A stretch of DNA of 64,000 bases. It comes from Pseudomonas fragi. GTDB lineage: Bacteria > Pseudomonadota > Gammaproteobacteria > Pseudomonadales > Pseudomonadaceae. The notes under the pieces are model-generated. The model was not told where the DNA came from, made no database searches, and saw nothing but the letters and a program-made list of their open reading frames with translations. Position 1 is the first letter of the stretch; every line of letters begins with the position of its first letter. Made by a program: the position numbers and the translations under genes. The DNA lies in NCBI RefSeq assembly GCF_900105835.1, contig NZ_LT629783.1, positions 3,618,501 to 3,682,500 of the forward strand. The letters run 5' to 3'. Of this stretch, positions 48,998 to 52,019 are shown piece after piece.

Positions 48998-50776
48998 ATG
49001 GCTGACTACAAAGCGCCCCTGCGCGATATGCGCTTCGTCCTCAATGAAGTCTTCGAGGTCGCTACACTTTGGGCGCAATTGCCTGCGTTGGCAGAGACCG
49101 TCGATGCTGAAACGGTTGAAGCCATTCTTGAAGAAGCGGGCAAGGTCACGGCCAAAAGCATCGCGCCGCTGAGCCGCAGTGGTGATGAGGAAGGCTGCCA
49201 CTGGGACAATGGCGCAGTGACCACCCCGGCCGGTTTTGTCGATGCCTATCGCACCTACGCCGAAGGCGGCTGGGTCGGTGTAGGCGGCGACCCGCAGTTC
49301 GGCGGTATGGGCATGCCCAAGGCCGTATCGGCGCAGGTCGAAGAGATGATCAACTCCTCCAGCCTGTCGTTTGGCCTGTACCCGATGCTGACTGCCGGGG
49401 CCTGTGTATCGATCAACGCCCACGCCAGCGACGAACTGAAAGCCACCTATTTGCCGAACATGTACTCGGGTGTGTGGGCTGGCTCCATGTGTTTGACCGA
49501 GCCCCATGCCGGTACTGATCTGGGGATTATTCGGACAAAAGCCGAGCCTCAGGTAGATGGTTCCTACAAAGTCAGTGGCACCAAAATCTTCATCACCGGT
49601 GGTGAACACGACCTGACCGAGAACATCATCCATCTGGTACTGGCCAAACTGCCGGATGCACCTGCGGGGCCGAAAGGTATTTCGCTGTTTCTGGTGCCCA
49701 AGTTCATGGTCAATGCCGATGGCAGCCTGGGCGAGCGCAACCCGGTGACTTGCGGCTCCATTGAACACAAGATGGGTATCCAGGCCTCGGCCACCTGCGT
49801 GATGAATTTCGACGAGGCAGTTGGCTACCTGGTAGGCGAGCCCAACCGTGGCCTGGCCGCGATGTTCACCATGATGAACTACGAGCGTCTTGGGGTTGGC
49901 ATTCAGGGCCTGGCTTCGGGCGAGCGTTCGTACCAGAACGCCGTCGAATATGCCCGCGACCGCCTGCAGGGGCGCGCAGCAACCGGCGCGGTGGCCAAGG
50001 ATAAAGTGGCTGATCCGATCATCGTCCACGCCGACGTGCGGCGCATGTTGCTGACCATGAAAGCCTCGAACGAAGGCGGTCGGGCGTTTTCGACTTACGT
50101 TGCCAACCAGCTGGACATTGCCAAGTTCAGTGAAGACCCCGCCGCCCGCGAGCGCGCTGATGGCCTGGTGGCCTTGCTGACCCCGGTGGCCAAAGCCTTC
50201 CTCACCGACCTGGGCCTGGAAACCACCGTGCATGGCCAGCAAGTGTTTGGTGGACATGGCTACATTCGTGAATGGGGCCAGGAACAACTGGTGCGCGATG
50301 TGCGCATCACCCAGATCTACGAAGGCACCAACGGTATCCAGGCGCTGGATCTGGTGGGGCGCAAGATCGTGGGCAACCAGGGTGCTTACTACCGTCAGTT
50401 TGCCGACGAGATTCGTCAGTTTATTGCCGGGGCCGGCAGTGACCTGAACGAGTTTACCCAGCCACTGGCTGCAGCTTTGGACACACTTGATCAGTTGACA
50501 GCCTGGGTACTGGACCGCTCGCAAAACAACCCGAACGAGATCGGTGCTGCCTCTGTCGAGTACCTGCAGGTTTTTGGTTACACAACGTATGCGTACATGT
50601 GGGCGTTGATGGCCAGGGCCGCGTTGGGCAAAGAGGCCGATGAAGCCTTCTATGCCAGCAAACTGGGCACGGCACGCTTCTATTTCGCCCGTTTGCTGCC
50701 GCGTATCCACTCGCTGAGCGCTTCGGTCAAGGCGGGTAGCGAGTCGCTTTACCTGCTGGACGAAGCACACTTTTAA
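48998..50776 (+). CDS. long acyl-CoA dehydrogenase (FadE2/PA0508-type)
   Basis: 592 residues, paralogue of the gene at 46918 and of similar design: [20 protein letters not shown] at the start (compare [20 protein letters not shown]), MCLTEPHAGTDLGIIRTKAE, VSGTKIFITGGEHDLTENII, HGQQVFGGHGYIREWGQEQL and RITQIYEGTNGIQALDLVGR. Beta-oxidation first step. It has its own leader with GGTCA repeats. The next element downstream is the rsmY gene, not a protein gene. Confidence 0.93.
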   Translation: MADYKAPLRDMRFVLNEVFEVATLWAQLPALAETVDAETVEAILEEAGKVTAKSIAPLSRSGDEEGCHWDNGAVTTPAGFVDAYRTYAEGGWVGVGGDPQFGGMGMPKAVSAQVEEMINSSSLSFGLYPMLTAGACVSINAHASDELKATYLPNMYSGVWAGSMCLTEPHAGTDLGIIRTKAEPQVDGSYKVSGTKIFITGGEHDLTENIIHLVLAKLPDAPAGPKGISLFLVPKFMVNADGSLGERNPVTCGSIEHKMGIQASATCVMNFDEAVGYLVGEPNRGLAAMFTMMNYERLGVGIQGLASGERSYQNAVEYARDRLQGRAATGAVAKDKVADPIIVHADVRRMLLTMKASNEGGRAFSTYVANQLDIAKFSEDPAARERADGLVALLTPVAKAFLTDLGLETTVHGQQVFGGHGYIREWGQEQLVRDVRITQIYEGTNGIQALDLVGRKIVGNQGAYYRQFADEIRQFIAGAGSDLNEFTQPLAAALDTLDQLTAWVLDRSQNNPNEIGAASVEYLQVFGYTTYAYMWALMARAALGKEADEAFYASKLGTARFYFARLLPRIHSLSASVKAGSESLYLLDEAHF

Positions 50777-50790
50777 GCTGTTTAGTGTTT

Positions 50791-50808
50791 TGTAAGCATT
50801 TGCTTACA
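50791..50808 (+). promoter_or_regulatory. GacA upstream activating sequence (GacA box)
   Basis: TGTAAGCATTTGCTTACA, an 18-bp perfect palindrome with the TGTAAG-N6-CTTACA form required by GacA for rsmX/Y/Z genes. Its centre is about 65 bp before the inferred RNA start, as in known rsm genes. Confidence 0.9.
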
Positions 50809-50864
50809 TTACATGCTGACAATCTCCCATATCGGCAGATTGGATCCAGGGGTAATCTACTTTC

Positions 50865-50990
50865 CATGGACGTAGAGCAGGAAGCTCAAAGCAACAACAC
50901 GGACACGTAGGATTCTGCCAGGATGGCGGAGTGAAAAGGATGTCAGGGAAACAGTCTGCAAAACCCCGCCTCGGCGGGGTTTTCTTTTTT
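50865..50990 (+). ncRNA. rsmY: RsmX/Y/Z-type regulatory RNA (best fit RsmY)
   Basis: About 126 nt inferred from a weak -10 (TAATCT, 50853-50858) to the terminator. It holds eight GGA motifs before the terminator. Two are in hairpin loops: GAGC-AGGAA-GCTC (50875-50887) and TCTGCC-AGGAT-GGCGGA (50914-50930), the classic RsmA/RsmE (CsrA) binding design. A strong terminator stem (CCCCGC/GCGGGG, 50960-50990) ends it, and a GacA box precedes it. The RNA would sequester RsmA/RsmE to free target mRNAs under GacS/GacA control. The flanking LysR and class III aminotransferase genes match the rsmY neighbourhood in other pseudomonads. Family call is firm; the Y subtype rests on synteny and the GCAGGAAGC hairpin. 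Confidence 0.85.
50960..50990 (+). terminator. Rho-independent terminator of rsmY
   Basis: AAAACCCCGC-CTCG-GCGGGGTTTT followed by CTTTTTT. Confidence 0.93.
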
Positions 50991-51023: not shown

Positions 51024-51108
51024 GTGGGAGCGGGCTTGCCCGCGATCGCATCACCACGGTGTGCCTGAAGCTCCGCGTCGCCTGAATCGCGAGCAAGCCC
51101 GCTCCCAC
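51024..51108. repeat. REPIN between rsmY and the LysR gene
   Basis: Left arm GTGGGAGCGGGCTTGCCCGC and right arm CGCGAGCAAGCCCGCTCCCAC. Confidence 0.95.
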
Positions 51109-51119
51109 AAGGTGGTCAG

Positions 51120-52019
51120 CTACAACGCCCCTTCATCGCTCTGCATCACATCCTCAAGCAAGGTGCGCAACAGCCCCAAAGTGGCTTGCTGACGCTGCAC
51201 ATCGCGGCACACCAACCCCACCTTCAGCGGCACACGGGGCTCGCTCAGCGGCTTCCACAGCAGCGCCTTGTCGTCGTGCTGATGGCGCGAGCGCCCAGGC
51301 AATACGGTGGCCAGCTTGCTGTGGGGCAGGCTGTCGAGAATCCCCGCCATGGTGTTTAGTTCGGCTTGTACCTGCGGGCGCCGCCCCAGGTTGGCGAGCT
51401 GGGTTTGCCAGATCTGGCGTACCTGAAACTCTTCTCCCAGTAGCAGCATCGGCAGCTCTGCCGCCTGGCTTACAGACACCTTCTTGAATTCGCGCAGTGG
51501 ATGATCTGCCGGGATTACCAGTTGCAGTTCGTCTTCATACAGCAGCATGCCGTGCAGCCCGGGCTGGCGTGGCGGCAGGTAGCTGATGCCAATGTCGAGC
51601 GAACCATTAAGCAGGCGCCGTTCGATCTCGATGCCGGTGAGCTCGTAGATCTGCACCACCAAATGGGGTTGGGCCTGGCGCACCCGCTCCAGCATCTGCG
51701 GCACCAGGCTGGTATGTACGGTTTGCAACACGCCGATGGCGATGGTGCGCAGGGCCTGGCCCTGAAAATTGTGCAAAGCCTCTTTGGCCCGTTGCAGCCC
51801 GTCGAGCAGCGGCAGCGCGTGGTTGTAGAGCGTATGCGCTGCCAGGGTTGGCAGCAGGCGCTTGCTGCTGCGCTCGAACAGGCTCACATCGAGGTTGTGT
51901 TCGAGCTGGCGGATCTGCTGCGACAGGGCTGGCTGCGAGATGCAAAGACGCTCGGCGGCACGGCCCACATGGCCTTCTTCATACACCGCGACGAAATAAC
52001 GCAGTTGCTTGAAATCCAT
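51120..52019 (-). CDS. LysR-family transcriptional regulator
   Basis: 299 residues. The winged helix is MDFKQLRYFVAVYEEGHVGR with ERLCISQPALSQQIRQLEHN. The effector domain runs from about residue 90 (TIAIGVLQTVHTSLVPQMLE) and resembles CynR/CbbR-type members in its YELTGIEIERRLLNGSLDIG segment. It is divergent from the class III aminotransferase gene, which it may control. A perfect palindrome overlaps its start. Function otherwise unknown. Confidence 0.92.
   Translation of the reverse strand: MDFKQLRYFVAVYEEGHVGRAAERLCISQPALSQQIRQLEHNLDVSLFERSSKRLLPTLAAHTLYNHALPLLDGLQRAKEALHNFQGQALRTIAIGVLQTVHTSLVPQMLERVRQAQPHLVVQIYELTGIEIERRLLNGSLDIGISYLPPRQPGLHGMLLYEDELQLVIPADHPLREFKKVSVSQAAELPMLLLGEEFQVRQIWQTQLANLGRRPQVQAELNTMAGILDSLPHSKLATVLPGRSRHQHDDKALLWKPLSEPRVPLKVGLVCRDVQRQQATLGLLRTLLEDVMQSDEGAL

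Follow-up and report, generated by a model that had tools for sequence, protein, structure and literature searches.

The window analysed in our study, a stretch of 64 000 nt from a P. fragi-like genome, harbours an rsmY gene within a 343 bp gap between two ORFs, an acyl-CoA dehydrogenase ORF whose end is at 50776 and a LysR ORF, on the opposite strand, whose end is at 51120 (Table 1). The first-pass annotation had placed an Rsm-type regulatory RNA here, between a beta-oxidation gene and a LysR gene, and both the length of the gap and the two neighbours were confirmed. Searching the window with the Rfam covariance models identified the RNA as RsmY: the match to family RF00195 spans the whole model and scores 122.5 bits (E 4.2e-29) against a gathering score of 57 bits, and RF00195 was the only Rfam family to exceed its gathering score in the window. 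This search had itself been put forward as the means of refuting the annotation, and its outcome was strongly in favour of RsmY.

Table 1. Features of the rsmY locus (coordinates are positions within the window)
Feature	Coordinates	Strand	Basis
Acyl-CoA dehydrogenase ORF	48998-50776	+	Assignment backed by Pfam
GacA box (palindromic upstream activating sequence), TGTAAG-N6-CTTACA	50791-50808	.	Exact match
Conserved block ATTGGATCCA, between GacA box and -10	50839-50848	+	Alignment of rsmY promoters on the -10
-10 hexamer TAATCT	50853-50858	+	Read from sequence; -13 to -8 of predicted start 50866
RsmY small RNA, 118 nt	50866-50983	+	Rfam RF00195, model 1-121 of 121
Hairpin 1, GAGC-AGGAA-GCUC, GGA in loop	50875-50887	+	Minimum-energy fold
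Hairpin 2, GGA 50921-50923 as loop	50912-50932	+	Minimum-energy fold
Intrinsic terminator, 10-pair stem then T run	50960-50983	+	Terminator scan and covariance match
LysR ORF	51120-52019	-	Assignment backed by Pfam

RsmY scored above the cut-off in 146 of the 149 genomes of a genus sample that included our own. The three genomes below it were G042, with a sub-cut-off match of 55.2 bits that spans the model, and G014 and G133, with best E-values of 1.2e-6 and 2.9e-7, respectively. Synteny was tested at 91 of the 146 loci, comprising our own, the 30 best-scoring and the 60 lowest-scoring; by tblastn, a match to the dehydrogenase lay within 1.5 kb of rsmY at 75 of the 91 and a match to the LysR protein at 51. 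To judge from these neighbours, the gene sits where rsmY often lies in Pseudomonas.

The gap also contains a REP-type element at 51026-51106, one of 16 such places in the window. With up to 3 mismatches allowed, the repeat GGGAGCGGGCTTGCCCGCGA and its relatives number 32 in the window versus 0 expected, and they form 16 inverted pairs, mostly ~60 bp apart.

Structure of the RsmY RNA

The RNA carries eight GGA motifs (50868, 50880, 50901, 50910, 50921, 50928, 50938 and 50947), a count that was reached by only 17 of 5000 shuffles of positions 50866-50959. The minimum-energy fold placed two of them, at 50880 and 50921, in hairpin loops, so that the first-pass counts of eight motifs and two loop sites were both reproduced, as was its strong terminator, which consists of a 10-pair stem followed by T residues. 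The folding energy of positions 50866-50985, terminator included, gave a z-score of -2.92. Of the 146 rsmY loci, 77 have eight GGA motifs, and the extremes are 6 and 11; counting stopped at the first TTTT past base 90.

A consensus fold of 50 sequences drawn from the 91 synteny-tested loci contained 22 pairs, 3 of which showed changes on both sides. One such pair lies in hairpin 1, where it was changed in 4 of the 50 sequences, and one in hairpin 2, changed in 6. The hairpins of rsmY are therefore conserved with thin covariation support, which is due to many of the stem pairs being invariant.

One congener, at locus L193 (G102:C3:554541-554814), appears to encode an RsmY that is longer at its 5' end: upstream of the covariance match, the first hairpin region seems to be present a second time.

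GacA box and -10 hexamer

A perfect GacA box, claimed by the first-pass annotation, is present as TGTAAGCATTTGCTTACA with zero mismatches, and its 5' end lies at -75 from the predicted RNA start. Boxes with up to 2 mismatches are expected by chance 0.79 times per window, and 53 of 100 shuffles contained one, so only an exact box is telling. Two exact boxes were found in the 5.07-Mb genome, one upstream of rsmY and the other upstream of RsmZ; allowing 1 mismatch gave three places genome-wide, compared with 2 forward and 2 reverse for a reversed control pattern. The promoters at all 146 above-cut-off rsmY loci were examined, and at 145 of these the 5' end of the box lay between -74 and -76, with 0, 1 and 2 mismatches in 104, 38 and 3 loci, respectively. 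The remaining locus was L193, whose box falls beyond the fetched stretch and whose positions are shifted because the RNA seems to be longer and to begin before the covariance match does.

The -10 of the first-pass annotation was likewise found, as the hexamer TAATCT. Described there as weak, it is the usual -10 of rsmY and is exact in 120 of the 146 loci. A promoter scan found no sigma-70 promoter pair at rsmY. PMC3684763 describes TAATCT as the -10 conserved among these genes, and the P. chlororaphis 30-84 promoters share it with our own; the same paper reports rsmY to be the most strongly expressed of the three Rsm RNAs in that strain.

A conserved block in the linker

Aligning the rsmY promoters on the -10 revealed a ten-base block, ATTGGATCCA, that stands out from an otherwise variable linker between the GacA box and the -10. 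TGGATCC was present in 108 of the 146 promoters, always starting at -25 or -24, and TTGGATCC in 101. The 38 loci without TGGATCC were counted as lacking the block, although L193, one of them, has TTGGATCC at a shifted -72; as some rsmY promoters do without it, the block is lineage-limited. In our genome, block and TAATCT at the same spacing occur once, at rsmY, with one other place at 2 mismatches. The plain nine-mer of the block has 8 sites on the plus and 7 on the minus strand, compared with 4 and 4 for a reversed control, and at six other nine-mer sites the bases that follow match TAATCT at no more than 3 of 6 positions. An exact 32-base stretch of the linker was also found in one P. fragi and one P. 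bubulae record among the genome contigs searched, and the organism is close to these two species.

Congeners yielded 71 rsmX matches above the cut-off, and the promoters of 27 of these were examined. In 12 of the 27, TTGGATCC lies at exactly -26, as in most rsmY promoters; it was at -8 in five and at -7 in one (L101), and nine were without it. In these six cases (L100, L101, L114, L119, L120 and L131) the motif is right at the point where the rsmX RNA is predicted to start, and this argues against a single fixed function for the block. GGATCC was absent from the rsmZ promoter of our genome.

The most economical reading of the block is that of a putative clade-specific promoter element; alternatively, the rsmX and rsmY promoters may resemble each other here through common descent. 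We tentatively suggest, as a possibility less probable than not, that activation of these genes by GacA depends on the block as the binding site of an auxiliary factor or as a special contact for the polymerase. Humair et al. are said to have found, in 2010, that the GacA box is necessary and insufficient and that the linker is essential, and such an auxiliary site or contact would explain both observations. The block was not plainly described in the literature searched, and no claim to novelty is made; PMC3684763 shows the three promoters aligned in a figure.

A perfect inverted repeat in the same linker, CAATCT-N11-AGATTG (50820-50842), lies near the LysR gene and resembles a LysR site of the T-N11-A type. 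It was rejected as a LysR operator. A perfect dyad of the 6-N11-6 form occurs in 3 of 91 linkers, our own included, and a perfect 6 bp repeat with a loop of 3-20 occurs in 16 of 91 linkers compared with 507 of 5000 shuffles of our own linker.

Partner genes, related RNAs and predicted function

The same genome encodes the expected partners of rsmY. One ORF exceeded the 280-bit cut-off of NF007018 (PRK09483), presumably a model for UvrY/GacA, scoring 311.4 bits where the next best scored 166.7; this GacA-type response regulator is encoded by an uninterrupted frame of 228 aa. A TGA within the family match raised the question of a broken gacA, which was dismissed: the lower boundary of the match coincides with the end of the 228-aa frame, and these coordinates indicate that the TGA is the ordinary gacA stop. 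Three CsrA-family proteins are also encoded.

RsmZ was found at a locus of its own (G000:C1:1994983-1995115, 128.2 bits). Like rsmY, RsmZ (RF00166) is GGA-rich, with eight GGA motifs in our genome's copy, and has a GacA box, but it is a separate gene whose box lies ~170 bp upstream of the RNA, compared with ~58 bp for rsmY. The rsmX model (RF02144) found nothing in this genome, an absence that carries some weight because the same model exceeded its cut-off in 39 of 59 genomes sampled from the genus. Rsm RNAs have GacA boxes and GGA hairpins in common (PMC2375449), and a reading of the locus as RsmZ, RsmX or a GGA-rich look-alike could draw on this. Such a reading is nevertheless very improbable, as RsmY alone rose above its gathering score, a full-length match refutes assignment to another family, RsmZ is accounted for elsewhere and RsmX left no match.

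A second copy of RsmY was considered at G000:C1:3857002-3857088 and rejected. It scored 26.1 bits, below the cut-off, and Rfam reported nothing there at the gathering score. Of 14 unrelated control genomes, two also gave matches to this model below the cut-off. A search for GacA boxes allowing up to 2 mismatches found none at this place, one site having 3, and by inspection the part that resembles RsmY is a strong terminator. No copies were found in the plasmid collection.

The closest described counterpart considered was the rsmY of P. fluorescens SS101, for which PMC4353343 gives a length of 118 bp, eight GGA motifs, the box TGTAAGCATTCTCTTACA and an expression that drops when gacS or gacA is mutated. 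Our RNA agrees in length (118 nt) and in GGA count, and the perfect GacA box in front of it matches in form; it differs in having two GGA motifs in predicted loops versus three, which were predicted with another folding program, and otherwise the two show ordinary sequence divergence.

The locus is, with near certainty, an rsmY gene for a GacA-activated small RNA of ~118 nt that would sequester proteins of the CsrA/RsmA family. Its family membership, architecture and conservation and the presence of its partner genes were observed directly, and no evidence against rsmY was found in this analysis. GacA binding and dependence, the transcript ends and the sequestration of RsmA are attributed to it by analogy with the family. 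Phosphorylated GacA would bind the box at 50791-50808 and drive transcription from the TAATCT hexamer, and the RNA would end at the terminator. The GGA motifs, eight in all with two in loops, would then bind and sequester the CsrA/RsmA-family proteins, whose genes lie elsewhere in the genome, and the target mRNAs of these proteins would thereby become free for translation. A decayed rsmY, no longer transcribed, is most improbable on sequence grounds, given that every element from the box and the -10 through the GGA motifs and hairpins to the terminator is intact and in agreement with relatives, and that the GacA-type gene has an open frame.

In summary, the first-pass annotation identified the RNA correctly, and the gene is an ordinary rsmY orthologue, standard for the genus. 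RsmY is one output RNA of the Gac/Rsm switch, which governs exoproducts, secondary metabolites and biofilm in Pseudomonas, and its location in this P. fragi-like genome is a useful annotation rather than news. As a defined stretch of ten bases, the linker block lends itself to probing what the rsmX and rsmY promoters require in addition to GacA.
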